NCBI GenBank assembly: GCA_945890645.1
Contig: CAMDCV010000036.1
Span: 1 to 43,212 of the forward strand
Reading direction: 5' to 3'
Length of the DNA: 43,212 nt
Source of the DNA: Akkermansia muciniphila
GTDB taxonomy: Bacteria; Verrucomicrobiota; Verrucomicrobiia; Verrucomicrobiales; Akkermansiaceae
Under the pieces are notes generated by a model. That model saw only the letters and a list, made by a program, of their open reading frames with translations. It did not search any database and was not told the origin of the DNA. The position numbers were made by a program, and so were the translations under genes. Below are positions 7,740-43,148 of the stretch, one piece after another. Position 1 is the stretch's first letter, and every line of letters starts with the position of its first letter.

Positions 7740-9206
7740 ATGTTGCAATACCTAGAACTGGAACACCTCACACGCCGTCATTTCCTCAGCAAATGCTCAA
7801 TGGGACTCGGCGGATTGTGGCTTGCTTCTCAAGGCCAAAGTTGGGGCGCATCGGGACCCATGAAAAAGGATCCCGCGCAGCCATTGCTGCCCGATCTATC
7901 GCATTTTGCACCGAAGGCGAAACGGGTGATCTACTTGCACATGGCGGGCTCGCCGAGCCAGTTGGAGATGTTTGATTTCAAACCAGAACTTGCCAAGCTC
8001 GATGGCAAGGAATGCCCACAAGAATTTCTCGCGGGCAAACAATTCGCTTTCATTCAAGGAGTGCCGCGCATGCTCGGTTCGCAATTTCCCTTCCATCAGG
8101 CGGGAGAGAGCGGCCACTGGATTTCCGATCGAATGCCGCATCTCGAAACCGTGATCGATGAACTATGTATTGTGAAATCGATGTACACCGATCAGTTCAA
8201 TCACGCCCCTGCGCAGTTGCTGATGCACACTGGTTCGCCGCAACTCGGTTGGCCGTGCGCGGGTGCATGGGCGACCTACGGCCTCGGTTCGGAAAATCAA
8301 AACTTGCCCGGTTTCATCGTCATGACTTCCGGTGGTGTCAATCCCGATGCCGGCAAGTCGGTCTGGGGTTCCGGATTTCTGCCGTCGGTCTATCAAGGCG
8401 TGCAATGTCGATCTCAGGGCGAGCCGGTGCTTTTCTTGCAAAACCCCGATGGCGTTTCGCAAGCACTGCGCCGTCGCACGCTCGATGCCCTATCCGACAT
8501 CAACGAACGCATCGCCAAAGAAGTCGGCGATCCCGAAACTGTTACTCGCATCGCCCAATACGAGATGGCCTATCGCATGCAAATCCATGCGTCCGATGCC
8601 TTCGATATCATGCAAGAACCGGAAGCAGTCCACAAAGCCTACAACACTCAACCCGGCAAAGAATCCTTTGCGAACAACTGCCTGCTCGCGCGTCGTCTCG
8701 CTGAGCGTGGGGTGCGTTTTATTCAACTCTTCGACTGGGGTTGGGACTCGCACGGCACGGGCCCGAACACCGACCTGAAAATGGGCTTTGTCGATAAATG
8801 CAAAGAGATCGATCAACCGATTGCGGCTCTTTTGAAAGACCTGCGTCAGCGCGGCTTGCTCGATGAAACGTTGGTGATTTGGTCCGGCGAATTTGGTCGT
8901 ACGCCCATGCGCGAAAACCGTGGCGGTGTGGAAATGAAGCACATCGGTCGCGACCACAATCCTGGTGCTTACACTTTGTGGATGGCAGGTGGCGGCGTGA
9001 AGCCCGGCTACAGTCACGGCGAGACCGATCCCATCGGCTACGAAGCGATGATCGATAAAGTTTCTGCCCACGACCTGCATGCCACAATGCTGCATTTGTT
9101 AGGCATGGATCACGAAAAATTCACCTACCCGCATCAAGGAGCGATGCATCGTCTCAGCAACATCACCAAGACCGGCACAAAGGTCGTGAAGCAGTTGCTG
9201 GCGTAG
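7740..9206 (+). CDS. Tat-exported DUF1501 protein
   Basis: A 488-aa DUF1501 protein, the standard partner of the DUF1549/DUF1553 gene just upstream. The N-terminus has a twin-arginine signal, TRRHFLSKCSMGLGGLWLAS, so export in folded form by Tat is expected. The DUF1501 fold is related to the alkaline phosphatase/sulfatase superfamily. The conserved IWSGEFGRTPMRE and HDLHATMLHLLGMDH stretches are present. The gene probably shares an operon with the upstream gene. The substrate is unknown. Confidence 0.9.
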   Translation: MLQYLELEHLTRRHFLSKCSMGLGGLWLASQGQSWGASGPMKKDPAQPLLPDLSHFAPKAKRVIYLHMAGSPSQLEMFDFKPELAKLDGKECPQEFLAGKQFAFIQGVPRMLGSQFPFHQAGESGHWISDRMPHLETVIDELCIVKSMYTDQFNHAPAQLLMHTGSPQLGWPCAGAWATYGLGSENQNLPGFIVMTSGGVNPDAGKSVWGSGFLPSVYQGVQCRSQGEPVLFLQNPDGVSQALRRRTLDALSDINERIAKEVGDPETVTRIAQYEMAYRMQIHASDAFDIMQEPEAVHKAYNTQPGKESFANNCLLARRLAERGVRFIQLFDWGWDSHGTGPNTDLKMGFVDKCKEIDQPIAALLKDLRQRGLLDETLVIWSGEFGRTPMRENRGGVEMKHIGRDHNPGAYTLWMAGGGVKPGYSHGETDPIGYEAMIDKVSAHDLHATMLHLLGMDHEKFTYPHQGAMHRLSNITKTGTKVVKQLLA

Positions 9207-9282: not shown

Positions 9283-9359
9283 CGGGGCGTAGCTCAGCCT
9301 GGTAGAGCGCCTGCTTTGGGAGCAGGAAGTCGTCAGTTCGAATCTGGCCGCCCCGACCA
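9283..9359 (+). tRNA. tRNA-Pro (anticodon TGG)
   Basis: A 77-nt cloverleaf. The acceptor stem CGGGGCG pairs with CGCCCCG. The anticodon stem CCTGC/GCAGG encloses loop TTTGGGA with anticodon TGG at 9317-9319. The T loop is TTCGAAT and the 3' CCA is encoded. It lies 77 bp after the DUF1501 stop. Confidence 0.95.
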
Positions 9360-30480: not shown

Positions 30481-30520
30481 GGCGGACGTCGACCCTGTGT
30501 TGGCGTCCGCCGTTTTTTTT
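30481..30520 (+). terminator. Intrinsic terminator after the zinc-ribbon gene
   Basis: GGCGGACG (30481-30488) pairs with CGTCCGCC (30504-30511), followed by G and eight T residues. It separates the rightward ABC/zinc-ribbon genes from the leftward protease operon. Confidence 0.9.
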
Positions 30521-31337
30521 ACTGATTCGGGCCGCGTATAGAGGGAACCCAGGGTTCGGAAATTTCCTGCAACAAGGCCTTTGCCACGGGCGGCTTGAGA
30601 CTTGGATAGACTGACAACAATCGCGCTAATAATCCCGAGACATGCGGTGCGGCAAAACTGCTTCCCGACTGTTTTGTCCATCGGCCATTTTTCCAAGGCA
30701 CTTCGAGATCCACACCGCGTGCTGCGAATTCGACAAGGTGTTTGGAAAACTCTCCTTCGGGTTCGTCCCAGCGGAAAAATAAATCATCGCTCAAAGTGTT
30801 GGCCATGTTGACCGTCACTACCGATGGGAAATGTCCAGGCCACTCGGCACTACGAAAATCTTCGTTATCACAAGCGCTTACGATGTGAACACCACGTCGA
30901 TACGCGCGATCCACCCATGGCTTGAAATGTTCGATCTTCGATAAATCGGCGCGACTGCCAAAACTGCAATTGATGATTTGATAGCCGAGATCCACGGCCA
31001 AGGATGCTGCTTCGCGGATGATTTGAAATTTGCTGCCGAGCTGTGCATTCAGCACGCGGAAACTGCCGATTTGTGCTTCGGGGGCGACGCGGCGGATGGC
31101 ATGAGCGACTGCGGTGCCGTGGCCGAAGAGATCAACTCCCCAAGCGGGCGATCTTTTCACGACTCCCTCTTCTGTTAATTCGAATGCAAGATCATCGACC
31201 AATCGCAAACCTGTGAGTGCCGGATGCGATAGCTCGATTCCGGAATCGATCACCGCAATTTTTACGCCACGTCCACGTCCTATCGTCATCGCTTCACGCG
31301 CTGCTTCTGGTGTGATCCATGTGGATTGATGGTTCAT
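30519..31337 (-). CDS. Cytosolic subtilisin-like serine protease (S8)
   Basis: A compact 272-aa S8 peptidase domain with no signal peptide and no propeptide. The catalytic triad is visible: Asp in AVIDSGIELSHP, His in DLFGHGTAVAHAI, and Ser in SGSSFAAPHVSGLLARL. The oxyanion Asn region reads SACDNEDFRS. Without a signal or prodomain it should be intracellular and needs another control. It is the last gene of a three-gene leftward operon, with a 4-bp overlap with the GAF-like gene. That context suggests the two upstream proteins gate its activity. The target is unknown. Confidence 0.88.
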   Translation of the reverse strand: MNHQSTWITPEAAREAMTIGRGRGVKIAVIDSGIELSHPALTGLRLVDDLAFELTEEGVVKRSPAWGVDLFGHGTAVAHAIRRVAPEAQIGSFRVLNAQLGSKFQIIREAASLAVDLGYQIINCSFGSRADLSKIEHFKPWVDRAYRRGVHIVSACDNEDFRSAEWPGHFPSVVTVNMANTLSDDLFFRWDEPEGEFSKHLVEFAARGVDLEVPWKNGRWTKQSGSSFAAPHVSGLLARLLSVYPSLKPPVAKALLQEISEPWVPSIRGPNQ

Positions 31338-31894
31338 ATGGATTCGATTCCCAAAGTCGCGCGGATCAAACGGTCTTCAATCAATCGACCCAATAAAGAG
31401 GCGAGTTCGGCAGGCGCTCGCAGTGGGGCGGTAAGATTTTTTTCATAGCTGACTCGACTCAACACCAAGGTGATGTTTTCAAACAAAAATACGGGACTCG
31501 ATGCCATCGCTTCGATCTCACAGCCACGAAGCATTTCTAGATTTGTCCAATCCGCCGCTTCTAATGCATCGGCTACGGCGCTTTCTGATCGTCCACTGCC
31601 CATCACCCGTGCAATCATGCCTTCTTGCGCATCGGCCCGTGCATAACCTTCGACTAACTCCTTAGGCGCACGCGTCGACAACGCGACAACAAAGTTTTTT
31701 CCTTCATTTGCCCATAATAACAGCTCGCAATTCGAATCATCGGCGGCCGCGTGGAAACTACGCAGCGCCTGCGTTCCCATCACTTGGGCAAGATTATGAG
31801 CATTGATTTCACGCGCAATACCCACAAGGCGAGGTTTCAACGAAAAACCAAGCGCTTCGTGCGCATCATCGGGAATAATCACAAGTCGGTTCAT
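31334..31894 (-). CDS. GAF-like domain protein
   Basis: A 186-aa protein. Residues about 45-160 follow a GAF-like pattern: NCELLLWANEGKNFVVALST, then EGMIARVMGSGRSESAVAD, then WTNLEMLRGCEIEAMASSPVF. That would make it a small-ligand sensor domain. The assignment is by pattern only. I start at 31894 (MNRLVIIPDDAHEALG); the longer open frame upstream only overlaps the preceding gene. It lies 13 bp after the TRAFs-binding gene and overlaps the protease start by 4 bp. Confidence 0.5.
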   Translation of the reverse strand: MNRLVIIPDDAHEALGFSLKPRLVGIAREINAHNLAQVMGTQALRSFHAAADDSNCELLLWANEGKNFVVALSTRAPKELVEGYARADAQEGMIARVMGSGRSESAVADALEAADWTNLEMLRGCEIEAMASSPVFLFENITLVLSRVSYEKNLTAPLRAPAELASLLGRLIEDRLIRATLGIESI

Positions 31895-31907
31895 AGAGCG
31901 ATGAGTT

Positions 31908-33761
31908 TCAGCTAGTCTGGAGGCGGAACAATCGATCACCGCGACCATCGACCACGGAAATTCCCGCGTGTTCAAAGCGGATGCCGCGCAACGATTCCAA
32001 TGCGGAGAGTGCGGAAAATGTTTCGGTCGCATAGGCAACACCCCTGGGCAATCCAGTGGCCATGGCCGCTGCGCGTGTGATCGCAGCTCCTTCATGCGCA
32101 TAGAAATTCAGCACAGGATTGATCATTTGCCACACTGGTCCAGCATGAAGGCAAAGGGACGGCAAGCATTTCGCGTTTGCCTGTGGCGCTTGTAAAGCCT
32201 CCAGCAAACTGAGCGCCATGGAGGCGGCGGGAAACAATTGATCGAAGACGAATAAATAATTTCCACCAAATCCTTGTCGATCGATAGGCGGGCATTCGGC
32301 AAGTGCGAGTTTGGTCGCGATCACGCCTAACACATCGGTTTGAAAGGTCGCGAAATCTGCGTCGCTCATCTCGCTGTATTGGGGGAAATGAAGCAACAAC
32401 ATCGCGCAAACGGCAACCTTGGGTTTGGTGGAGTTAGACTTAAGTGCGCGAGCGAACGGAGCGGGTTCCGATTTCGCATCTTTGTCGGGAATGCCATCGA
32501 GTTCCGGTTTTTCCGGATGGATTTGATGCAATGAGAGATTGGGTTGCGTCCACAATTTTGCCGAGGTGTTCGACATTTGTTCGCCGACCCATAAGGTCCG
32601 CAGGGAAAATCCGAGATGGTTGGCAAGCAAGGCGCCGCGCGCCGCGATCATGCGGTCGGTGAACTCCACGGCTTCGGTGGGGGCGCTGGTCACTTCCTGC
32701 AAGATCGTGATCGATATTGATTTCTCACGAACGGCGGCAAAGCGTTGCACCCAAGTCTCTCCTTTGGGCTGCAGGATCAACTCGCAATATCGCTCTGCGG
32801 AGCAGGGGAGAATCAAATGCGTTTCGATTCCGGATGCCTGGAGTTTTTCTAACAGAAATAAGTCCCATCCCAGACGCGCACTGCTGAACACGCTGCGAAC
32901 CGAATGAGTGGTCGCCCACTGCATGACGCGCGATTCTACATCGACAACCCATGATGCCTCGCATTCCACTTGATCGGCTTTCAGCGCTTCGGCCGATAGG
33001 ACGGCTACAGCTCCCATGGGAAATGCCGCATCCATATGATCCCTGCGGCCGTAAAGTTTCAGACTGAGTTCCCGACACTGCTTGCGTGTCGATGCTAAAT
33101 CCGCCCAGCGATTTTCTCTCGCTGCGAGCTGGGCCGCGGCGCGATAAAGCTCGGTCGCCTCTTCACACTTTTCAAGAATCAACGAAGCTTCGGCTCGCGT
33201 TGCGATTCCGTAATAGCTGTGATCTTCTGACGCTTGATCTAGTGTGCTCAGCGCCAACTCCTGAGATTTCTCTTTGTCATCAATCAAGGCCGACAAGGCT
33301 GCCGCGTTGATTCCACAATACGCCGCGCCGCCGCGATCTTTGGCTTCGAGAGCACGACGGTAACCGATTTCGTAGTGCTGCCGTGCTTCGCGTAAAAATG
33401 CCACACGTTCCTCCGGAGTGGTGGCTGTTGCCGCGAGGTCTTTCTCGATCCGAGCCAGCAATCCCAGAGTCTCTGCATCATCCGCCCGACCCAGTTCAAT
33501 CCTTGCTAACAAATTTTTTGCCTCATGGCTTGATCCAAGCACCGCCAACGCGCGTGCCATCTGCTGCTGGATGGGAACTGTGTCGGGAATATTCCCTTCT
33601 CGTAACGCTGCTTCGCCGATTTCAAGTACGAGTAAATGTTCGCCAGCGCCATTTGCCTTTTTGAGTAAGCCATGAAGGGCGGGGCCATTCTCTAAAAGCA
33701 TCCGTCGCTCCGCCAACCACCGTGCGCGTGGCGTTTCCTGCATGAATTCAGAGCGGTGCAT
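31908..33761 (-). CDS. TRAFs-binding/TPR protein with SLOG-like and cyclase-like domains
   Basis: A 617-aa cytosolic protein. Residues about 1-230 match the TRAFs-binding/DUF4071 helical repeat region (GEHLLVLEIGEAALREG, YGINAAALSALIDD, TELYRAAAQLAARENRWADL). About 270-380 is Rossmann-like and resembles SLOG-type regions (SSARLGWDLFLLEKLQASG, then ETHLILPCSAERYCELIL). About 440-615 is a class III cyclase-like domain (SEMSDADFATFQTDVLGVIA, LCLHAGPVWQMINPVLNF, AYATETFSALSALESLRG). Both metal-binding aspartates seem lost: the first site reads MLLLHF and the second GFGGNYLFVF. It is probably a nucleotide sensor rather than a cyclase. The start is uncertain; 33743 and 33845 are alternatives. Confidence 0.7.
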   Translation of the reverse strand: MHRSEFMQETPRARWLAERRMLLENGPALHGLLKKANGAGEHLLVLEIGEAALREGNIPDTVPIQQQMARALAVLGSSHEAKNLLARIELGRADDAETLGLLARIEKDLAATATTPEERVAFLREARQHYEIGYRRALEAKDRGGAAYCGINAAALSALIDDKEKSQELALSTLDQASEDHSYYGIATRAEASLILEKCEEATELYRAAAQLAARENRWADLASTRKQCRELSLKLYGRRDHMDAAFPMGAVAVLSAEALKADQVECEASWVVDVESRVMQWATTHSVRSVFSSARLGWDLFLLEKLQASGIETHLILPCSAERYCELILQPKGETWVQRFAAVREKSISITILQEVTSAPTEAVEFTDRMIAARGALLANHLGFSLRTLWVGEQMSNTSAKLWTQPNLSLHQIHPEKPELDGIPDKDAKSEPAPFARALKSNSTKPKVAVCAMLLLHFPQYSEMSDADFATFQTDVLGVIATKLALAECPPIDRQGFGGNYLFVFDQLFPAASMALSLLEALQAPQANAKCLPSLCLHAGPVWQMINPVLNFYAHEGAAITRAAAMATGLPRGVAYATETFSALSALESLRGIRFEHAGISVVDGRGDRLFRLQTS

Positions 33762-33904
33762 AATTCTAATAGTATCGGCAGCAGTTTCTTTTATGTGTAA
33801 GTTGACTAACAGTGTTAGCATGCCCGATTCCGCCGAGTCACGCAATCCGAGAATCTTGGCTTTTTAGGGAATATTTTTATCAATACAAGCCAGACAATTT
33901 TTTG

Positions 33905-33932
33905 TGATCCTTTTGACGAGAGAATTTCGCAT
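33905..33932 (+). promoter_or_regulatory. ECF-type promoter motif, site 1 (sigma gene)
   Basis: TGATCC (33905-33910), 14 nt, then TTTCGCAT (33925-33932). Three further sites in the window have the same two blocks at the same spacing. It lies 90 bp upstream of the sigma factor start and would make the sigma gene autoregulated. Confidence 0.7.
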
Positions 33933-34022
33933 ATGATAAAGAGAAGTGATTTTATCGCTGAGAGTGTTTTTCAAGGTCGGAATTTCATTGCCAAAGATGT
34001 GGCAAAAACGAGAGAGTAGAAC

Positions 34023-34592
34023 ATGCCAGACGACAGCGATAACGTGACGCGAATTCTTCATGCGGCGAGTGCGGGCGATAGACAAGCGGCAGAAGATTTA
34101 ATCCCGCTGGTGTATGATGAGTTGCGCAAGTTAGCGGCGTGGCGTTTGGGGCAGGAAGCGCAGGCCCATACGTTACAAGCGACGGCTCTGGTGCACGAAG
34201 CTTACTTAAAACTCTCGCCAGGTGAACAACAATGGGAGGGCCGCAAGCACTTCTTCTGCGCCGCCGCGGAAGCGATGCGTCGTATTCTCATCGACCGAGC
34301 AAGGCATAGGAAAGCGGTACGGCATGGCGGTGAAATGCAGCGTACGGAGTTCGTGGAAGATGGAATCGCCGTTCCCTCTGCAAAAGACGACGAGATCCTT
34401 GCCATCCATCAAATCTTGGATCGCTTTGCACAAATCGAACCGCGCAAGGCCGAGGTGGTCAAGTTGCGTTATTTCATCGGCATGACGATCGAAGAAGCTG
34501 CTGATGCACTCGGCATTTCGACGCCTACGGCGAAGCGAGACTGGATCTTCGCTAGGGCTTGGTTGTTTCGGGAACTGAAACGGGATGATTGA
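34023..34592 (+). CDS. ECF-family RNA polymerase sigma factor
   Basis: A 189-aa sigma factor of the planctomycete-type ECF subfamily. Region 2 spans about residues 15-95 (LIPLVYDELRKLAAWRLGQE, ATALVHEAYLKLSP, AAAEAMRRILIDRARHRKAV). Region 4 spans about 125-185 (RKAEVVKLRYFIGMTIEEAA, then DALGISTPTAKRDW). No anti-sigma gene is adjacent. In this subfamily a linked Ser/Thr kinase is often the regulator, and one lies at 35536. A conserved two-block promoter motif precedes this gene and three neighbouring units, so it probably controls its own regulon. Confidence 0.9.
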   Translation: MPDDSDNVTRILHAASAGDRQAAEDLIPLVYDELRKLAAWRLGQEAQAHTLQATALVHEAYLKLSPGEQQWEGRKHFFCAAAEAMRRILIDRARHRKAVRHGGEMQRTEFVEDGIAVPSAKDDEILAIHQILDRFAQIEPRKAEVVKLRYFIGMTIEEAADALGISTPTAKRDWIFARAWLFRELKRDD

Positions 34593-34677
34593 GGAATCGT
34601 TAGTGTGCTATGCCCGATTCGTGCATTGACTCCCACCTGTTTTTTTACCACTCTCCAGTCACGACAAATATACTACC

Positions 34678-35403
34678 ATGAAACTATTTCCCAAATGCAT
34701 CCCCACTCTCGTCCTGATGGCTCTCGGCTTCTTTGCCGCGCATGCCCAGGAATTAGAATCCACCACACCAGTCCCTGGTAAAACGAACGGCGAAAAATGG
34801 TGGAATGGAAACTATGAGCGAATCAATACCGACCTCAAGACTGCTGGGGAAAAGATTGACGTCTGTTTCGTCGGCGACTCGATAACGGCTCGTTGGCGCG
34901 GCAGTGAGAACTGGACCAAACACTGGGGGAGCTACAAGGCCGTCAACATGGGCATCGGCGGCGATAGCACACAGATCGTCTTGTGGCGCTTGCAAAATGG
35001 CCAATTAGAGGGCTACAAAGCCAAGGTGTTTGTCGTGATGATTGGCACAAACAATCTCTGGGGTAAACAAGCCAAACCAGAAGATGCGGCCGCTGGTGTG
35101 AAAGCGATCCTTGATTTGATCCAGGCAAAGCAACCACAGGCGAAAATCCTTCTGATGAGTCTCCTACCCACGGGTGAGAAGCCTAACCCCGGCCGCGATT
35201 TGAGAGCCGCAGTGAATGTCATCATCTCCAAATACGCCGGAGGCTCCATCACCTATATGGACATTTACGACAAATATCTTCAGCCGGATGGCACCATCAG
35301 CAAAGAAGATATGGGCGATTACCTGCATCTCGCTCCCAAGGGCTATGACATCTGGGCGGATGCCATCAGCGCCAAGGTTAAGGAACTCGTCGCCGAAAAA
35401 TAG
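34678..35403 (+). CDS. Secreted SGNH/GDSL hydrolase
   Basis: A 241-aa SGNH-fold hydrolase of the platelet-activating-factor acetylhydrolase-like group. A signal peptide (MKLFPKCIPTLVLMALGFFA, cleavage near AHAQ) leads to block I with the nucleophile (CFVGDSITARW). The block II-like MGIGGDST, block III (MIGTNNLWG) and block V (DYLHLAPKGYDIWADAI, with catalytic Asp and His) follow. It likely deacylates or deacetylates an envelope or extracellular substrate. It lies 85 bp after the sigma gene. No copy of the promoter motif precedes it, so it may be cotranscribed with the sigma gene. Confidence 0.85.
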   Translation: MKLFPKCIPTLVLMALGFFAAHAQELESTTPVPGKTNGEKWWNGNYERINTDLKTAGEKIDVCFVGDSITARWRGSENWTKHWGSYKAVNMGIGGDSTQIVLWRLQNGQLEGYKAKVFVVMIGTNNLWGKQAKPEDAAAGVKAILDLIQAKQPQAKILLMSLLPTGEKPNPGRDLRAAVNVIISKYAGGSITYMDIYDKYLQPDGTISKEDMGDYLHLAPKGYDIWADAISAKVKELVAEK

Positions 35404-35482
35404 ATTGAGAAGAAGGGGGATGGTCTGAAACTGGCTGGAAGCGTGTTTGCCATGCAAGGCGAGACGCACTGTCCTCCTTATT

Positions 35483-35510
35483 TGATCTTTTCTCCACCGA
35501 TTTTTCGCAT
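35483..35510 (+). promoter_or_regulatory. ECF-type promoter motif, site 2 (kinase gene)
   Basis: TGATCT (35483-35488), 14 nt, then TTTCGCAT (35503-35510), 25 bp before the kinase start. Block spacing is identical to site 1. The short distance to the ATG leaves room for a leader of about 20 nt. Confidence 0.7.
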
Positions 35511-35535
35511 AGGAAAGTGGTAGGCAAACATTTCG

Positions 35536-37875
35536 ATGGCCTTACCACTAACCGATATGTCGCAACCACTTGCAGCGGAAATCATCATGGAAGAAGCCCT
35601 GGACATTCCGGGTTTGGCGGAGCGTGCCGACTACCTTGCTGCGGCCTGTGGGGGTGATCCTCTGCTACGAGAAGAAGTGGAGTCTCTCATCGCCGCGCAT
35701 TTGGCGGATGACAGCTTTATGACTACACCTGCGGAAGCCTTGTGGCGCGAAGCCCGCAGGGAAGGCGAGGGCGACATGATAGGCCGATACAAGCTACTCC
35801 AGCAGATCGGTGAAGGTGGTTTCGGTACGGTTTTTCTCGCGGAGCAAAGTGCGCCGATGAAGCGTCAGGTAGCGCTGAAGGTGATCAAGCCGGGAATGGA
35901 CTCGAGAGAAATTATTGCACGTTTTGAAGCCGAGCGTCAGGTGCTCGCGCTGATGGATCATCCGCACATCGCCAAGGTGCATGATGCGGGAACCACCGAG
36001 GGTGGGCGTCCCTATTTCGTGATGGAACTGGTAAAAGGCGAGCCGATCACGAATTATTGTACTGAAAAAAATCTCGATACCAAGGAGCGACTGGAGCTTT
36101 TTATCGATGTTTGCGCGGCGGTGCAACATGCGCATCAGAAAGGCATTATTCACCGAGACTTGAAGCCATCGAACATCTTAGTCTCTCCCCACGAAGGGAG
36201 TCCCTTGGTAAAAGTGATCGACTTCGGAATCGCGAAGGCCATCGGGGTGGAACTCACCGAAAATACGATCTTCACGCAGTTCGGTCGGATGATTGGTACT
36301 CCGCAATACATGAGCCCCGAACAAGCAGGACTGAACACACTGGATGTGGACACGCGCAGCGACATCTATTCGCTGGGAGTAATCCTCTATGAAGTGTTGA
36401 CCGGGACAACGCCGCTGGATGGGAAACAATTGCGCAATGCGGACTACGGCGAGATGCAACGTCTCATTCGTGAGGTGACTCCACCGAAGCCGAGTACCAA
36501 ACTCGCCGAATCATTCGCAACACCCAAAGCGTCTAACATTTTTCGTCCCGGAGTTTCACCGCGCATTCTGCGGGGGGATCTCGACTGGATTGTACTGAAA
36601 GCTCTCGAAAAAGATCCCGCTCGCCGCTACGACTCCGCAGGGGCGATGGCGGAAGATTTGTTGCGTTTTCTCCAGCATAAACCAATTGAGGCCCGTCCGC
36701 CGAGCATGGCTTATGCAATGATGCGTTTCACTCGTCGTTATCGTGGTCCGGTATTTGCAGCGTCGACGCTGTTGATAGCTCTAATATTGGGAACAGTAGG
36801 CACTACGATTGGCCTGAATCGGGCGCTCGATGCCAAGGGGGAGTTAGAGCGGAAGAACGCCGAACTGGACCAGCAAAAACTAGAGCTCGTGGATACCAAA
36901 GAACGGTTAGCAGGACTCCTCGAATCGAACCAAAAAATGCTCGACGAAATCAGCAAGATGAGCACGAATGAAGCAACACTTCCTCGTGAATTTGAGGCCC
37001 TGCGAAAAGAGAACAAAACCTTGTTAGATAAAGTCAGCAGCGAGGTGGCGAATCAAGAGCGCTACACGCAGGAAATCGAAAATCTCAAGCAGATGAAGGG
37101 GGAGATGGAGGAAAGGGTGGGGAGACAAATTCAAATAAATGCGGTCCTCAAAAAAGAGAAAGAGCAGCTGCAAGGTAAACTCACCGGACTTCAACGTTCG
37201 ATATCGATGATGACTCAAAGCCAGTATGAGGGAACATCTAACAATTTCACCGATGTCGTTCCCGTAGACCGCAAGACCGGCGAAGTGACCGTCGCGCACA
37301 CCGTTGTCGCACTCACGGCGGAACAGATCGACGAAACCCAGACGCTCGGAACGCTCACCCTCACTCCCGAGCAGTGGAACGAAGTGCGTGCGAAGTCACC
37401 GCAGAGCCCGAAGCGATTCACCCACATATTGCCCCTGCCATGGCCTGACCGCAGTTTCGGCGCGGATGTGGAATATGTGATTGAGCTATCGCGCGACCGC
37501 ATGGCAGTGCTGCACAAAGGTGATACCAGCATGAGTGTTGCTTCGTTGCGTGACGAACTTTTTAAAGACAGCATCACCTCGCTCCGCGTGAATGATCGCG
37601 GTATGTATTACCTCGGCGGAAATCTGATCCCTTTCCCCACGTTGCTTCAAGCGTTCGCCACACCGCCTGACGATGCCCAGCGCGACGCTGAAGGGAAACT
37701 TGTTGTCACCGCGACCATAGCCGGCCGCGAAATAACCGCGCCACGCTGGCTAGGAGTAAAGTTGCCCGCAGGCGCCAAGCCCACCGATGCCGTCTTTCAT
37801 TTTCGTCTCACACAACTCGCAGCCGCCGCAGATCAAATCGGCCTCCGGCATGAGCTTTTTTTGGAGAAACAATAG
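35536..37875 (+). CDS. Receptor-like Ser/Thr kinase with a novel ectodomain
   Basis: A 779-aa PknB-like transmembrane kinase. A ~80-residue N-terminal helical region precedes the kinase domain (about 84-380). That domain has the Gly loop GEGGFG (92-97), Lys K115 (VALKV), HRDLKPSN (catalytic D208), DFG (229-231) and an APE-like SPEQ. One membrane span follows (about 404-424), then a long coiled coil (430-560). The C-terminal ~205 residues (574-779) form a domain I do not recognise. It is clearly homologous to the mature part of the secreted protein at 38788. The coiled coil and last domain should lie outside the cytoplasm. A promoter motif shared with the sigma gene precedes it. ATG 35557 is an alternative start. 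Confidence 0.9.
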   Translation: MALPLTDMSQPLAAEIIMEEALDIPGLAERADYLAAACGGDPLLREEVESLIAAHLADDSFMTTPAEALWREARREGEGDMIGRYKLLQQIGEGGFGTVFLAEQSAPMKRQVALKVIKPGMDSREIIARFEAERQVLALMDHPHIAKVHDAGTTEGGRPYFVMELVKGEPITNYCTEKNLDTKERLELFIDVCAAVQHAHQKGIIHRDLKPSNILVSPHEGSPLVKVIDFGIAKAIGVELTENTIFTQFGRMIGTPQYMSPEQAGLNTLDVDTRSDIYSLGVILYEVLTGTTPLDGKQLRNADYGEMQRLIREVTPPKPSTKLAESFATPKASNIFRPGVSPRILRGDLDWIVLKALEKDPARRYDSAGAMAEDLLRFLQHKPIEARPPSMAYAMMRFTRRYRGPVFAASTLLIALILGTVGTTIGLNRALDAKGELERKNAELDQQKLELVDTKERLAGLLESNQKMLDEISKMSTNEATLPREFEALRKENKTLLDKVSSEVANQERYTQEIENLKQMKGEMEERVGRQIQINAVLKKEKEQLQGKLTGLQRSISMMTQSQYEGTSNNFTDVVPVDRKTGEVTVAHTVVALTAEQIDETQTLGTLTLTPEQWNEVRAKSPQSPKRFTHILPLPWPDRSFGADVEYVIELSRDRMAVLHKGDTSMSVASLRDELFKDSITSLRVNDRGMYYLGGNLIPFPTLLQAFATPPDDAQRDAEGKLVVTATIAGREITAPRWLGVKLPAGAKPTDAVFHFRLTQLAAAADQIGLRHELFLEKQ

Positions 37876-37949
37876 CGGTGAGGAAAGTGGCGGCGATAGC
37901 ATCGCACGTTACACATCTCTTCCAAAAATTTCAGAGCAGCAAATTTTTC

Positions 37950-37977
37950 TGATCTATTGGCGGAAGGAATTTCGCAT
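37950..37977 (+). promoter_or_regulatory. ECF-type promoter motif, site 3 (membrane protein gene)
   Basis: TGATCT (37950-37955), 14 nt, then TTTCGCAT (37970-37977). If this is a promoter, transcription would start about 6-8 nt later, inside the GTG at 37980. The ATG at 38004 is then the real start of the next gene. Confidence 0.65.
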
Positions 37978-38003
37978 CTGTGACTGATCTCATCTTCAAA
38001 GTC

Positions 38004-38711
38004 ATGAAAAAATTTATAACGCCTCTTCCTCAACTGGCACTCATTCATCCGGGCATGGTTGGGAAAAACGATCTTCCTCATCTTCGTGATGGCATGGCGG
38101 CCATAATGATGTTTGGCATCGGATTCGCACCCATCTCGGCTCTCGCGTTGTCGCTCATGGGAATTTTCACTCTACCCGTTGCCACGCTCATTCTGGTCAT
38201 TCCGTCACTCGTGATTGCCATTGGTTTGAGCTTTTATCATCCTGAATATGGCAGATTGATGCTGCGTGCATATTTGATGGGGATCATCGCGGTCGCTTGT
38301 TATGATTGCGTGCGCATTCCTTTTACGATGATCGGATGGATGGATGATTTCATTCCCAAAATTGGCGGCATGCTGGTGGAGGATGGCAATCCACATGCGC
38401 TCATCGGCTACCTCTGGCGCTATCTGGGCAACGGGGGAGGGATGGGTATGGCATTTGTGACTGCCTATGCTCTTTTGCGGCATCGATTTTTGATGCTTAG
38501 GTTGTTAGGCGGACTGAAGACCGCGCTCCTTTTTGGGTTTTTTGTGTGGGCGTGCCTTATCATTACATTGAAAATTTCGCCCCAGGGTGAGGATCTGATG
38601 TTTGTCATTACTCCTAGTAGCCTGCTGCTCAGTTTGATCGGGCATCTGGTTTTTGGGTGCACACTTGGGTGCCTCGTGAACCGTTTTCGACCAGAAGAAA
38701 TGGGAAAGTAA
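38004..38711 (+). CDS. Multi-pass membrane protein in the sigma/kinase cluster
   Basis: A 235-aa protein with six to seven predicted spans (for example MMFGIGFAPISALALSLMGI, LILVIPSLVIAIGLSFY and LLGGLKTALLFGFFVWACLI). I do not recognise the family and see no catalytic motif. I start at ATG 38004 (MKKFITPLPQLALIHPG) instead of GTG 37980, because the GTG overlaps the predicted transcription start of promoter motif site 3. It lies between the kinase and the secreted homologue of the kinase ectodomain. Each of those also has the motif, so it is a candidate member of the same regulon. Confidence 0.65.
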   Translation: MKKFITPLPQLALIHPGMVGKNDLPHLRDGMAAIMMFGIGFAPISALALSLMGIFTLPVATLILVIPSLVIAIGLSFYHPEYGRLMLRAYLMGIIAVACYDCVRIPFTMIGWMDDFIPKIGGMLVEDGNPHALIGYLWRYLGNGGGMGMAFVTAYALLRHRFLMLRLLGGLKTALLFGFFVWACLIITLKISPQGEDLMFVITPSSLLLSLIGHLVFGCTLGCLVNRFRPEEMGK

Positions 38712-38718
38712 TTTTTTA

Positions 38719-38746
38719 TGATCCTTTTTATAGGCAAATTTCGCAT
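38719..38746 (+). promoter_or_regulatory. ECF-type promoter motif, site 4 (secreted protein gene)
   Basis: TGATCC (38719-38724), 14 nt, then TTTCGCAT (38739-38746), 41 bp before the start of the secreted protein. The first block and the Ts after it match site 1 exactly. Confidence 0.7.
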
Positions 38747-38787
38747 TTCTAACTGACAGGCCAAATCAACATTTAGTCATCACAATT

Positions 38788-39495
38788 ATGAAAGCCATTT
38801 TATGCCTCATCACATCGTTATCCGCCTCTGCTTCACTTGTATTTGCTGATGGAATTCCGGTAGATCATGAAACGGGCCAAGTAATGGTTCCGCACACGAT
38901 CCTCTCATTGACCGATGAGCAGATCGATGAAATACAGACACTCGACACCTTCACTCTCGCTCCAGAGCAGTGGAGGCAAATGCGCGCGAAGATGCCGCAG
39001 TGTCCGAAAAGATTCCACAATGTTATTCCCGTGACATGGCGCGACTGCCTTTGCTGTGTCGGCCATGATGGGCCATATGTCATCGCGCTGTCGCGGGATC
39101 GCATCGCCGTGTTGCATGAGAATGAGAGTGGACTAAGCGTCGAATCCATTCGTTACGAACTTTTTTTTGATGTGCAAACCACGCTGCGTATGAATGAACG
39201 CGGGGAGTTTTTCTCCTGCGGCAAACTGGTGCCTTTCCAGACTTTGTTGAACGCGTTCGCGTCTCCGCCGGACAAAGCAAAGCGCAACAATGAAGGAAAA
39301 CTCGTCGTCGCCCGCACCTCTAGTTATGGAGAAGAGTATTTTGTGTTCCTTAGTTTGTCTGTGGCATTGCCTGTGGGCGCGAAACCGACAGATGCCGTGT
39401 ATGAATCACGTCTCAAACAACTCGCGTCCGCCGCAGAAAAAATTGGTATCGAGCATAGTCTCTTCTACCAAGAAGGTGACGATTCAGATGAATGA
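38788..39495 (+). CDS. Secreted stand-alone copy of the kinase ectodomain
   Basis: A 235-aa protein with a signal peptide (MKAILCLITSLSASASLVFA, cleavage before DGIP). The mature part aligns from end to end with residues 574-779 of the kinase at 35536. Shared stretches include PVDxxTGxVxVxHT, LTxEQIDExQTL, PEQWxxxRAKxPQxPKRF, IxLSRDRxAVLH and PxGAKPTDAV; about half the positions are identical by eye. It differs in having CLCC in the middle, which the kinase lacks. I do not recognise the domain. It could be a ligand, a competitor or a co-receptor of the kinase. Its promoter motif points to the same sigma factor. Confidence 0.75.
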   Translation: MKAILCLITSLSASASLVFADGIPVDHETGQVMVPHTILSLTDEQIDEIQTLDTFTLAPEQWRQMRAKMPQCPKRFHNVIPVTWRDCLCCVGHDGPYVIALSRDRIAVLHENESGLSVESIRYELFFDVQTTLRMNERGEFFSCGKLVPFQTLLNAFASPPDKAKRNNEGKLVVARTSSYGEEYFVFLSLSVALPVGAKPTDAVYESRLKQLASAAEKIGIEHSLFYQEGDDSDE

Positions 39496-39544
39496 GTCGC
39501 CTTGAATTCACTCACTTCAAAAAAACTCTAACATCAATCAATTC

Positions 39545-40357
39545 ATGAACAACGATACCACAAACAAAACATCAGAACGCACCTCTAAAATCCACCTGCT
39601 TCCCTTCGGAGCCGCCTTAGCCATTGGCCTTGCCGCGGTCTTGTCCACGTTGATCGCGGCAGGCACGTGGAAGGAGGTCCGCAAAGCTCCCGATAAAAAT
39701 AACATCCGCATCACTGGCTCCGCGCGCAAACGGATTGTCTCGGATTTGATCCAATGGTCCGCGACCATCGAAGCCAGAGCCCCGGAGCGCACCGCCGCCT
39801 ATATGTCGCTCAAGAGCGGCACCGATCAGGCCGTAGCATTTCTTAAGGCGGCGGGTCTCAAGGACGATGAAATTCAAACCCAGTCCGCTTTCCTAATTGA
39901 GGAGTTTGAAACGATTCAAGAGGACAAGGTGCTGCCTGGAACAAACGTCGCACTACGATCGGAAAAGCAAGTTTCGAAAGGCTTCCGTGCAACACAAGTT
40001 GTTTCCGTGAGTTCCACCAATGTCGCGCTCACCGAGAAGGCATCCCGTGAAATCACCTCGCTACTCGAACAGGGAATCGCAGTAACATCAAGAGCACCCA
40101 ATTATTATTATACAAAACTGGGTGAGGCTAAGCTGGAGATGCTCGCAGAGGCGGCAAAGGATGCCCGCAGTCGTGCAGAAAACATCCTCGACTCCGCTGG
40201 CAAAACTACCCTCGGCAAATTGGTGCACGCGCAAATGGGCATCATCAATATCAATCCCGCTAACTCCACCGATACCTCCTCCCAAGGGAACAACGACACC
40301 ACTTCTCGCGAAAAGGATATCATCACCATCGTGCACGCCGAGTTTAAGGTGAATTGA
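39545..40357 (+). CDS. SIMPL-domain (DUF541) membrane-anchored protein
   Basis: A 270-aa protein with one N-terminal membrane anchor (about residues 19-41) and a periplasmic SIMPL/DUF541 domain. The conserved segments are NIRITGSARKRIVSDLIQWS, FLKAAGLKDDEIQTQ, and LAEAAKDARSRAENILDSAG followed by LGKLV. SIMPL proteins are envelope or periplasmic proteins with poorly understood roles, some linked to stress. It follows the secreted kinase-ectodomain homologue by 49 bp but has no copy of the ECF-type motif. It might still be reached by read-through from site 4. Confidence 0.85.
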   Translation: MNNDTTNKTSERTSKIHLLPFGAALAIGLAAVLSTLIAAGTWKEVRKAPDKNNIRITGSARKRIVSDLIQWSATIEARAPERTAAYMSLKSGTDQAVAFLKAAGLKDDEIQTQSAFLIEEFETIQEDKVLPGTNVALRSEKQVSKGFRATQVVSVSSTNVALTEKASREITSLLEQGIAVTSRAPNYYYTKLGEAKLEMLAEAAKDARSRAENILDSAGKTTLGKLVHAQMGIININPANSTDTSSQGNNDTTSREKDIITIVHAEFKVN

Positions 40358-40409
40358 TAGCAGATAAGCTTCCCTAAGGATGGCTTAACCCTTCCGAACT
40401 CACTTCATC

Positions 40410-42182
40410 ATGCACCCTCACTCCTCCGAACGCGAAATGCCCCACCGCTGGCAGGCCATCGCCTTTTATGGGAAAACGCGCTTGTTTCAATTGCGTCGCA
40501 CAGTCGCGGAAATCGGTAAGCGTCCTCTGGAGCACGGGAAGGCACGAGCGCTGATCGATGCTCCGTTGATGGCGGAAAAACGGGCTCGGTTGTGGCGGGA
40601 ATTGAGACCCGAAGAGTTTCCCCTGACGGCAGGCAAGGTGGAAAACCTACGCATCGCCGCACGCGCGTTTCACGGCCTAGAAATCCCTCCCGGTGAGATC
40701 ATGAGTTTTTGGCGTCAGTTAGGTCGGACCACTCGGCGCAAAGGATTTCTCTCGGGACGCGAGCTGCGCGAGGGCTGTATCGTTCCTGCCATCGGCGGGG
40801 GGCTATGCCAGCTCAGCGGCCTGCTGTATCAGGCGGCGCTCGCTGCGGGGTTGGAAATAATTGAGCGCCATGGACACTCGCGCGTGGTTCCCGGTTCCCA
40901 AGCTGAGCAGGATCTGGATGCCACGATTTTTTGGAACTATGTCGATTTGCGATTCCGTAGTCACTTGCCGTGGCGCATCGAAATCGAACTTACGACTGAC
41001 GAGTTGGTAGTTCGGCTCCGCGGAATTTCGGGTTCGCGACAACAAGATCCACCTGCGCCGTTGCGACTGTCACCCCCGCGTTCTTTGCCGTCCGGTGATT
41101 GCTTGACCTGTGGCATGATCGAGTGTTTCCGTCACCCATCCGCGGTCAAAGAGAACGCTCCTGCACTGGGACACTCCGCGTTTTTGTTAGACGCACGCTG
41201 GCCGGAATTCGACCGCTGGTGCGCGGAGCATTCAAGGCCCGGCGACCGCTGGTTCACACCTATGGATGGTAACCGATGGAAGAAGCCGAATTATCAGTGG
41301 ACGGCGCCAGTTGGAATAGCCGTGCGTCACGCTACTTTAGCCGCGCTACGACGATCTTGGAATCAGCGTCGACTGCCAGCTCAAGGAGCTCTCCGGCAAC
41401 AGGTCTTGATTGAGGGCGAGAAAGAAATTGCTCGGACATACGCGAGAATGCTCCATCCTCAATGCCGGCATGTGGTGGTTTCACAAAACCTCCTGCCGCA
41501 TCTGTGGCGGCTCGGCGCGCTGGGTGGACGCAGTTTTGATGTGTTGATGGAACGTTGGCCGATGGAAGAAATGCAACGTCGGCTTGACCAAGCGCGGGCT
41601 GCCCACCCACAATCCACCACCTTAGGCGACTTTCGTGCCGAAGAAGAATTACTGCAGGCCGAACGGGAGGCTCTCGCAGCAGCCGCGCGCCTTATAACGC
41701 CGCACCTCGCGCTAGCAGCGTATTTCGGTCCGCGTGCATGGATTATCCCGTGGGAAATGCCGGTCCCTATGCCCCTTCTTACTAGTCAGGGAAAACCTTT
41801 ATTGTTTTTTCCCGCATCTCGACTGGGCCGCAAAGGCGCTTTCGAGTTAGCTGATGCGATGAAGTCTGGCATAAGCGCAGAGTTGCACTACCTCGGGGCA
41901 GCTGATGAAGGGATCGCCGATCCGTTTGTGGGTCTGAATTGTAGCCGTGGTGTGAAGAGTGACCTAGCATCAGCATCCGCCCTGATTCTTCCCGCGTGGA
42001 TCGAGCACCAGCCCCGCCTCGCACTGCTCGCACTTGCCAGTGGAATTCCTGTGATCGCCACCGAGGCCTGTGGGCTGCCACCGCATGAAAAATTGTATCA
42101 GATCGCTGCTCCCGATGCCGTTGCTTTGGCAGAAGTGATTAGCTCAGTGTTGCGGCCTACTTTGTCAACTTGTGTGGCCTGA
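40410..42182 (+). CDS. VanW domain fused to a glycosyltransferase-like region
   Basis: A 590-aa protein without a signal peptide. The N-terminal half contains a VanW-family domain (about residues 90-190): PPGEIMSFWRQLGRTTRRKG, then IGGGLCQLSGLLYQAA and ERHGHSR. A short cysteine-containing linker follows (GDCLTCGMIECFRHP). The C-terminal ~160 residues resemble the second half of a GT-B glycosyltransferase (PLLFFPASRLGRKGAFELAD, ALILPAWIEHQPRLALLALA, then SGIPVIATEACGLP). VanW is named from vancomycin-resistance clusters but its activity is unknown. This fusion would tie it to glycan transfer. Confidence 0.72.
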   Translation: MHPHSSEREMPHRWQAIAFYGKTRLFQLRRTVAEIGKRPLEHGKARALIDAPLMAEKRARLWRELRPEEFPLTAGKVENLRIAARAFHGLEIPPGEIMSFWRQLGRTTRRKGFLSGRELREGCIVPAIGGGLCQLSGLLYQAALAAGLEIIERHGHSRVVPGSQAEQDLDATIFWNYVDLRFRSHLPWRIEIELTTDELVVRLRGISGSRQQDPPAPLRLSPPRSLPSGDCLTCGMIECFRHPSAVKENAPALGHSAFLLDARWPEFDRWCAEHSRPGDRWFTPMDGNRWKKPNYQWTAPVGIAVRHATLAALRRSWNQRRLPAQGALRQQVLIEGEKEIARTYARMLHPQCRHVVVSQNLLPHLWRLGALGGRSFDVLMERWPMEEMQRRLDQARAAHPQSTTLGDFRAEEELLQAEREALAAAARLITPHLALAAYFGPRAWIIPWEMPVPMPLLTSQGKPLLFFPASRLGRKGAFELADAMKSGISAELHYLGAADEGIADPFVGLNCSRGVKSDLASASALILPAWIEHQPRLALLALASGIPVIATEACGLPPHEKLYQIAAPDAVALAEVISSVLRPTLSTCVA

Positions 42183-42240
42183 TGCTGTCGTGCGAAAGTT
42201 AAGGCAATAAGAATTCCCCATTCGTCCAAAACGGGACGCA

Positions 42241-42246
42241 TATAAT
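42241..42246 (+). promoter_or_regulatory. Consensus -10 TATAAT upstream of the PPK2 gene
   Basis: A perfect TATAAT lies 78 bp before the PPK2 start. No good -35 sits 16-18 bp upstream, so the call is tentative. Confidence 0.3.
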
Positions 42247-42323
42247 AGCAGCCTTGTTCAACCTGACAAAGATTTCGCACAGGAAAGCTTGCCAAATCGA
42301 GTTGGTGTGCATCAACATGGGTC

Positions 42324-43148
42324 ATGAATTTCACCGAGTTTTCTTCGCGTTATCTCGTCAAGCACGGCGCTAAGATTCAGTTGAGTCATATCGACCCTGA
42401 TGACAAAGTTTGGGCACCGCCGGAAGAACGTCATATCGCTGAGCGCAAACTCGACTCACTACGTGATGAAATTCAATCTTTGCAGAAAGTTCTCTATGCG
42501 CAAGGCAAGCATCGCATTTTGATCATTTTGCAGGCGATGGATACTGGGGGTAAGGACGGTTGTGTGAAGCATGTGTTTTCCCGTGTCGACCCTCAAGGCA
42601 TCACAGTGAAGGCATTCAAAAAGCCAACGGATGACGAACTGGCACATGATTTCCTCTGGCGCTTACACCCCCACGTTCCGGGCAATGGCGAGATCGTTAT
42701 TTTCAATCGCAGCCACTACGAGGACATCATCGCGGTTCGCGTGAAAAGCCTTCGTCCGGAAGAAGTGTGGAAAAAGCGCTATCGTCATATTATTGACTTT
42801 GAAAAAATGTTGGTCGATGAGGGCACGGTCATTTTAAAGTTTTTTCTGCACATCTCACCCGATGAACAAAAAGCGCGATTAGAGTCGCGCCTCCGCCAGC
42901 CAGAAAAGCATTGGAAGCTCAATCCCGAAGATTTGCAAGACCGCGCACAATGGGGTGAATTTATGGCAGCTTACGATGACCTCTTATCGAAAACATCATC
43001 GCTCCATGCGCCATGGTATGTCGTTCCGGCGAATCGCAAATGGTATCGGAATCTGGTGGTAGCGCAGTTAGTGGTCGGACGTCTACGCCAACTACAAATG
43101 ACCTATCCTAAGCCTAGTTGGGATCCAGGATCAATCGTGATCGAATGA
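42324..43148 (+). CDS. ppk2: Polyphosphate kinase 2 family protein
   Basis: PPK2 enzymes transfer phosphate between polyphosphate and nucleotides, usually making ADP or ATP from AMP or ADP. The 274-aa one-domain protein has Walker A MDTGGKDG (72-79) and Walker B FNRSHYED (127-134). The lid-region stretch ARLESRLRQPEKHWKLNPED, followed by RAQW, and the C-terminal PWYVVPANRKWYRN are also present. The form resembles the AMP- or ADP-phosphorylating single-domain class; the exact class cannot be set without alignment. The remaining 64 bp of the window contain no gene. Confidence 0.92.
   Translation: MNFTEFSSRYLVKHGAKIQLSHIDPDDKVWAPPEERHIAERKLDSLRDEIQSLQKVLYAQGKHRILIILQAMDTGGKDGCVKHVFSRVDPQGITVKAFKKPTDDELAHDFLWRLHPHVPGNGEIVIFNRSHYEDIIAVRVKSLRPEEVWKKRYRHIIDFEKMLVDEGTVILKFFLHISPDEQKARLESRLRQPEKHWKLNPEDLQDRAQWGEFMAAYDDLLSKTSSLHAPWYVVPANRKWYRNLVVAQLVVGRLRQLQMTYPKPSWDPGSIVIE

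Follow-up and report, generated by a model that had tools for sequence, protein, structure and literature searches.

The window analysed here, a stretch of 43,212 nt of Akkermansia muciniphila DNA, carries four copies of a two-block motif, TGATCY-N14-TTTCGCAT, ahead of the gene of an extracytoplasmic function (ECF) sigma factor at position 34023 and of genes close to it, one of which encodes a Hanks-type receptor kinase. Our reading, with a probability of roughly 0.8, is that the four sites are promoters of this sigma factor, which would be gated through phosphorylation of its Thr54 by the neighbouring receptor kinase, with feedback running through the kinase gene. By sequence we observed the motif itself, its positions, its exclusivity to the locus, its conservation in relatives and a correlation between sigma residues and promoter bases. 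The four sites are as follows.

33905..33932, + strand: predicted promoter site 1, TGATCC-N14-TTTCGCAT, ending 90 nt before the sigma gene.
35483..35510, + strand: predicted promoter site 2, ending 25 nt before the kinase gene; the most widely conserved position in relatives.
37950..37977, + strand: predicted promoter site 3, ending 26 nt before an ATG at 38004.
38719..38746, + strand: predicted promoter site 4, ending 41 nt before the gene of a secreted protein.

The first-pass annotation had placed four copies at these coordinates, before the genes of the ECF sigma (34023), the kinase (35536), a multi-pass membrane protein and the secreted protein (38788), with a fixed spacer and no further copy in the window, and all of this was borne out: the four are exact matches on the + strand, the spacer is exactly 14 nt in 4/4, the distance from site end to start codon is 25-90 nt, and no other exact match appeared when spacings of 5-30 nt were scanned on both strands of the window. 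The genome search that it had asked for was run on the whole assembly (3,824,162 bases, or 3.82 Mb, in 66 contigs, 97.6% complete) and returned the same four copies only, against about 0.05 expected from base composition (0.0005 in the window), so the motif does not occur at chance frequency; the reversed pattern had no match in the whole assembly. Spacers are identical at 4-8 of 14 positions among the four sites and the 30-nt flanks at 6-16 of 30; since both differ, the four did not arise by duplication of a single stretch.

For wider counts we used a relaxed motif, TGATCY-N14-TTYCGCAT with at most one mismatch, which was found at 13 further places in the genome, one of them (contig C9) with 0 mismatches. 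All 13 sit within open reading frames (ORFs), two of these only 103 and 108 codons long, and regulon members elsewhere in the genome were rejected on this ground. Places with two mismatches numbered 96 versus 22 for the reversed pattern, a control unmatched in composition. Sigma-70-like promoters in 33800-40500 were as frequent as expected (5 found, 5.3 expected), and no RNA family reached gathering scores in 33600-42400.

The features of the sigma and the kinase on which the argument depends are listed here.

34023..34592, + strand: ECF sigma factor of 189 aa, TIGR02999 / Sigma70_ECF by profile matches.
34182..34184, + strand: codon of Thr54 in the sigma2.2 motif QATA, presumed phospho-acceptor; invariant in 15 aligned sequences, role by analogy with EcfP and EcfK.
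34524..34535, + strand: codons of P168, T169, A170 and K171 in the sigma4 recognition helix; residues 168 and 171 track -35 bases.
35536..37875, + strand: Hanks-type Ser/Thr receptor kinase with a kinase domain, one transmembrane segment, a coiled-coil-like stretch and a C-terminal extracytoplasmic domain.
37228..37872, + strand: C-terminal domain of the kinase, presumed sensor; 55% identical to the secreted protein at 38788-39495.

The sigma matched TIGR02999 with 210.5 bits (curated cut-off 126.15) and PF07638 with 189 (cut-off 21.1); no relative in the PDB was found by sequence profile at E<=1e-5, the best single-sequence match having E 0.027. The kinase shows the signature motifs GEGGFG, HRDLKPSN, DFG and SPE, and its transmembrane segment spans residues 407-425.

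A control step which the first-pass annotation overlooked is, by analogy, likely to be the phosphorylation of Thr54 by this kinase. In the sigma the motif QATA with Thr54 replaces DAED, and it is invariant in 15/15 aligned sequences (the window's and 14 orthologs). According to the available portions of PMC8999054 and PMC13147305, the acidic residues for contact with core polymerase are missing from this motif in sigmas of group ECF43, whose adjacent kinase phosphorylates a Thr (EcfP; EcfK with further sites). The pairs described there, EcfP-PknT of Vibrio parahaemolyticus and EcfK-PknS of Xanthomonas citri, share with the window the absence of DAED, a Q[TA]T[AE]-like motif with its Thr, and an adjacent transmembrane Hanks-type kinase. 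Where the available text of PMC13147305 defines the group by a sigma2.2 without DAED and a Thr within a QTTA-like motif, the aligned sequences have QATA (15/15), and a Hanks-type kinase is a neighbour, in the window with one gene (GDSL) between, and a kinase adjoins the sigma in 12 other genomes too. The window sigma thus appears ECF43-like by its sigma2.2 motif and by its neighbouring kinase. That the sigma reads the motif but is controlled otherwise, for example by its level alone or by other phosphosites, has a modest but real chance of being right: EcfK of X. citri is still functional as T51A and linker sites matter, as far as the available text of PMC13147305 goes, whereas the invariance of QATA and Thr54 in the 15 aligned sequences and the adjacency of the kinase favour control through Thr54.

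We then compared relatives of the window's genome. Sigma orthologs were sought at E<=1e-70 in 195 genomes of the family, 17 of which, including the window's, were positive; at E<=1e-75 an ortholog was found in 16 of 386 genomes of the order, all in the window's family. The exact motif is present in 27/195 family genomes, namely in 11/17 with a sigma ortholog versus 16/178 without (Fisher p 3e-7). The sigma gene has an exact site next to it in 8 of these 11, the other three (G108, G124 and G125) carrying theirs on another contig.

The kinase gene could be compared in 12 of the 16 other sigma-bearing genomes, those in which an orthologous kinase adjoins the sigma; excluded were G078, whose kinase is divergent, G108, whose contig ends there, and G124 and G125, where the sigma has no orthologous kinase as its neighbour. 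The motif in its TTYCGCAT form stands ahead of the kinase with 0 mismatches in 9/12 and with one in L064, hence in 10/12 at no more than one mismatch; six other spacings gave three mismatches or more at every locus, even at their best. At a few loci the longest kinase ORF begins upstream of the motif, and there the true start must be later. The motif was also found, with 0 or 1 mismatch, before orthologs of the SIMPL gene at 39545 in five genomes (G059, G193, G039, G051 and G171), before orthologs of the membrane-protein gene in G042 and G080, and before that of the VanW gene at 40410 in G080. In G171 (L057, 6418-8015) an operon runs from motif to SIMPL to a secreted sensor copy, in the reverse gene order of the window; a stand-alone sensor copy is therefore present in at least two genomes (the window's and G171), each time downstream of a site. 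As a separate observation, G125 (L068, 5244-18662) has four sites, two exact and two with one mismatch, on a contig that does not hold its sigma ortholog; they stand ahead of ORFs that include large kinase-like ones.

The first-pass annotation had further claimed that the sigma at 34023 recognises the motif; this is supported by the exclusivity of the motif to the locus in this genome, by its retention before the same genes across genera, and by a residue-base table, drawn mostly from other lineages, that gives TGATC. The analysis behind this table drew on two sets of loci. The first comprises the best 80 loci from a scan of a named genome collection (84,980 species), with sigmas 49-80% identical and record titles of Verrucomicrobia, Planctomycetes and relatives, and one of Alphaproteobacteria; two of its loci come from the window's family, L085 being the contig of G080 and L086 that of G067. 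The second adds 9 loci of the phylum, together with more copies taken from 25 genomes, for a total of 153 distinct sigmas. L086 (CAMAYN010000056.1) is a contig of G067, from the window's genus, with a related sigma-kinase pair; its title, Akkermansia muciniphila, may be a mislabel.

Among the best 80 loci the relaxed motif at up to one mismatch occurred 9 times on the sigma strand (0 or 1 at other spacings) and twice on the other strand (up to 3 at other spacings). In 40 sigma-kinase gaps of 60-300 nt, TCGCA was found in 25 in sense and 1 in antisense, with 5.8 expected; fixed 300-nt windows past the sigma gave a weaker contrast, 43 versus 21 of 80, and 43 versus 23 of 73 in the second set. 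In 12/54 loci with a downstream kinase TGA stands exactly 22 nt ahead of TCGCA, each other distance between 14 and 33 occurring in 3 at most, and TG-N20-[TC]CGCA is present in 46/153 regions downstream of sigma genes. A kinase match lies within 1.3 kb of most site-bearing sigmas (41/46, and 9/12 among the 53 sigmas of the blind set described below). A position-weight scan using 26 family sites over 53 sigma-kinase gaps was clear in a few deeper relatives and weak in most.

Of 167 sigma positions, residue 168 (window numbering) was the best for -35 base 3 (z 12.8, next 5.5) and for base 4 (z 13.7, next 3.7), and residue 171 for base 5 (z 9.3, next 3.7). We take these two residues to correspond to DNA-contacting positions of Escherichia coli RpoE. 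Only offset 22 in sense carries this signal; among the other offset and strand combinations represented by 8 cases or more, z never exceeded 2.2. The table derived from the first 80 loci, applied to the cases that it covers among 26 of the second set, was right for base 3 in 19/24, for base 4 in 22/24 and for base 5 in 12/13 (baselines 8, 10 and 8). In a nearest-neighbour control with the helix left out, residue 168 predicted base 4 in 36/45 versus 27/46 for the nearest neighbour, and residue 171 predicted base 5 in 35/39 versus 22/46. Clustering the sigmas at 62% identity was rejected as a control, the sigmas having chained into 3 clusters, and a rule built on one residue, with K171 giving base 4 as T, performed weakly (overall Fisher p 0.02; second set, 1.0).

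R168 goes mostly with TGKC, followed by G with D171, A with Y171 and C with K171; A168 goes mostly with TGAG, followed by G with D/E171 and A with Y171; K171 goes with C in 7/9 cases of the first table. The predicted code assigns to -35 bases 3-4 GC/TC for R168, AG for A168, AT for P168 or I168 and GG for N168, and to base 5 G for D171 or E171, C for K171 or R171 and A for Y, N, A or H at 171; its putative sites lie 17 nt before TCGCA, just past the sigma gene and mostly ahead of the kinase gene. P168 and K171 of the window sigma should accordingly read TGATC, firmly so for K171 and C, and on few cases for P168 and AT.

A blind test was also carried out, the residue-base table being fixed before 60 new loci were read. 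After removal of 7 already seen, 53 sigmas remained, 40 of them with tabulated residues; each genome of this set had also given at least one locus to the first set. The predicted pentamer followed by N17-[TC]CGCA was found in 8/40 sense regions and in 0/40 in reverse, while shuffled predictions gave a mean of 0.94 with a maximum of 4 in 1000, and at the remaining spacings between 12 and 22 the count was 0 or 1. Among the covered sigmas with any TG-N20-[TC]CGCA, 8/9 held the predicted pentamer, the miss being an A/D sigma with TGAGT. The matches include a new combination, A168/K171 with TGAGC, and P168/K171 with TGATC, the window's own -35, in a sigma 49% identical to the window's.

Several observations weigh against our reading. 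The sigma gene itself is preceded by a site in 0/14 orthologs. Ahead of the kinase, G042 (L056) has a site with 2 mismatches and G128 (L059) has no motif, its kinase ORF starting about 10 nt past the sigma ORF; G108, G124, G125 and G078 cannot be counted for this site, and G078, with its divergent kinase, has no site with up to one mismatch in 19 kb. G051 (L070), whose assembly is 92% complete, has two sites upstream of SIMPL (8703-8730 and 9309-9336; one exact, one with one mismatch) and no sigma of the window family at E<=1e-15. In the wider family, no TG-N20-[TC]CGCA was found within 300 nt in 107/153 and 41/53 sigmas, and a kinase also follows most of these (75/107 and 31/41). TGA stands at the right distance in none of 9 Verrucomicrobiota loci, of which L169 has another code-like site. 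The assignment of AT to P168 comes from 2/4 cases of the first table, one of them (L085) from the window's own family, and one blind case. Finally, a paralogous sigma of the window's own genome has no site of its predicted TGKC type in its 18 kb neighbourhood.

That paralog on contig C21 (L006, L071), likewise TIGR02999-like (42% identity), adjoins its own kinase and gives some substance to the idea that a different sigma of the cell reads the four sites. It lacks the conserved Thr54, since TLDTCGLLH replaces TLQATALVH. From its R168 and E171 the table predicts TGKCG, and a TGATC site with up to one mismatch is absent from the 18 kb around it; genomes with an ortholog of the window sigma, for their part, are strongly enriched in the motif, so that we regard reading by another sigma as improbable. 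Slightly less probable still is that the motif is no promoter but serves an ordinary DNA-binding regulator as operator, with the adjacent sigma incidental. The promoter role of the four sites is a prediction from sequence, and G051 keeps two sites without a detectable sigma of the window family; but in the window the two blocks have a fixed spacing, lie on the coding strand and end 25-90 nt before start codons, and a separate regulator would not explain why -35 bases covary with two recognition-helix residues of the sigma in the wider family. The G051 sites may, independently of this, be a relic, reflect a missing contig or have another reader. Chance or a recent duplication without function is very improbable given four observed copies against 0.05 expected, with unlike spacers and flanks, and is contradicted by conservation across genera in diverged surroundings.

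The claim of the first-pass annotation that the sigma controls itself and its neighbours held in part: site 1 is exact in this genome and the neighbours' sites are conserved, but the site before the sigma gene is not. This was scanned over up to 300 nt upstream (220 in L060) in 14 orthologs, the more divergent L065 and L067 being left out; the best spacing-14 match listed had at least four mismatches in the 14 orthologs, and the one 2-mismatch site had a spacing of 13 (L055). Conserved autoregulation of the sigma gene was thus rejected, and because its site is not conserved, the conserved feedback would run through the kinase, a sigma loop being seen only in this genome. The other genes of the locus, all on the same strand, are listed below.

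34678..35403, + strand: probably secreted GDSL/SGNH hydrolase, its N-terminus hydrophobic; no motif of its own.
38004..38711, + strand: multi-pass membrane protein matching DUF6789 below threshold; in G042 and G080 the ortholog carries the motif at its start.
38788..39495, + strand: secreted stand-alone copy of the kinase C-terminal domain, 55% identical to it.
39545..40357, + strand: SIMPL (DUF541) protein; motif upstream of orthologs in five relatives.
40410..42182, + strand: VanW-domain protein whose C-terminal stretch weakly resembles family-4 glycosyltransferases; G080 ortholog with the motif directly upstream.

For the membrane protein the start at ATG 38004 is more likely than GTG 37980, because the latter would precede any transcription start 6-8 nt past the -10 block. 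The regulon of four genes that had been proposed keeps its four targets and is probably larger. SIMPL and VanW probably belong to it, since they lie close behind site 4 and have the motif directly upstream in some relatives; with gaps of only about 50 nt from secreted protein to SIMPL and from SIMPL to VanW, site 4 is predicted to serve all three genes, probably in one transcript. The GDSL gene may be transcribed from the sigma promoter. No anti-sigma gene was recognised by Pfam or NCBIfam among nine neighbours, of which the membrane protein is uncharacterised.

From these data we infer how the system would work as to transcription, operon structure, phosphorylation, signal and the role of the secreted copy. 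Sigma4, through P168 and K171 of its helix, would read the -35 block TGATC and sigma2 the -10 block TCGCAT, with 17 nt between. The sigma would probably be inactive until the receptor kinase phosphorylates Thr54, because the acidic DAED used for binding core polymerase is replaced by QATA. A signal beyond the cytoplasmic membrane, sensed by the C-terminal domain of the kinase, would switch on the kinase and thereby the sigma; transcription would then start before the kinase gene, the membrane-protein gene and the secreted/SIMPL/VanW genes, a small regulon mostly of envelope genes. Since the kinase gene carries a site, and in this genome the sigma gene too, the response would amplify itself. 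Production of the secreted sensor copy would be largely limited to the active state of the system; the copy may dampen the signal as a competitor for it or for the ligand, or may bind the sensor, or tune the kinase.

This sensor domain has no third copy in the genome at E<=0.01 and no Pfam match above cut-off (one at E 0.12). Its structural model has a mean predicted local distance difference test score (pLDDT) of 60.8, with 72-89 only across residues 121-220, the C-terminal half. Nothing in a fold search reached E<=0.001; its weak top matches repeatedly include ExbD entries, the best ranked being 8p9r (Z 5.0, 70 residues aligned, root-mean-square deviation 3.3), and an unrelated chain is practically tied at Z 4.9. 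The resemblance of the modelled C-terminal half to the ExbD/TolR periplasmic domain is a lead, not a result.

Two further observations concern the surroundings of the locus. A divergent cluster on the - strand (30519-33845), comprising a subtilase at 30519-31337, the ORF 31334-32101 and a TPR-S protein of 645 aa (31908-33845), resembles a separate TPR-S/protease module. A PPK2-family polyphosphate kinase is encoded at 42324-43148, directly past the regulon.

Compared with the ECF43 pairs, the window belongs to another phylum and has a local set of mostly envelope-type genes and a TGATC/TCGCAT motif; here the kinase gene itself has a conserved site, and the set holds a secreted copy of the kinase C-terminal domain. 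The planctomycetal groups ECF59, ECF61, ECF62 and ECF217 share an ECF sigma beside a Ser/Thr kinase and belong to related phyla (PMC8999054, available portion); that text has groups other than ECF43 keep a DAED-like motif, and the accessible part of PMC8103513 has ECF59 and the former ECF60 use Ser, whereas the window sigma has QATA. The canonical ECF hallmarks given in the same part of PMC8103513, AAC in the -35 and CGT in the -10, are replaced in the window by TGATC and TCGCAT. That article also describes a general ECF promoter code (Todor et al. 2020, PNAS), in which DNA-contact residues of sigma2 and sigma4 predict -35 and -10 bases; relative to that code, as known from this description, the present one concerns a QATA kinase-linked family with two largely independent helix positions and a TCGCA -10. 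Autoregulated ECF sigmas with an anti-sigma, such as RpoE, share the fixed two-block promoter, a local regulon and positive feedback, and differ in having the anti-sigma, none being recognised here, and in that feedback in the window family is conserved through the kinase and not the sigma gene. In the available text of these papers, only three kinase-activated ECF sigmas are named as tested, EcfK, EcfP and one of Hyphomonas neptunium, none of them with a promoter sequence given there, and among the matches listed in a literature search, as far as their text was available, none gave a promoter motif for ECF43-type or verrucomicrobial kinase-linked sigmas. The sigma-kinase type has been described before; new here would be its promoter specificity, a conserved feedback that targets the kinase, the secreted copy of the sensor and the proposed code of private promoters.

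Some of the genomes examined have up to 13-14 close copies (E<=1e-40) of QATA-type kinase-linked sigmas. We lean towards the broader view that such sigmas use a modular two-residue address code with private promoters, forming insulated signalling lines, of which the window would be the TGATC line with a secreted sensor copy as modulator. Many such sigma-kinase pairs occur in the searched genomes, and a motif exclusive to its locus and tied to two sigma residues gives a testable wiring diagram for these phyla, as well as candidate orthogonal sigma-promoter pairs with kinase input. If this is true, the regulons of kinase-sigma pairs would be readable from sequence.

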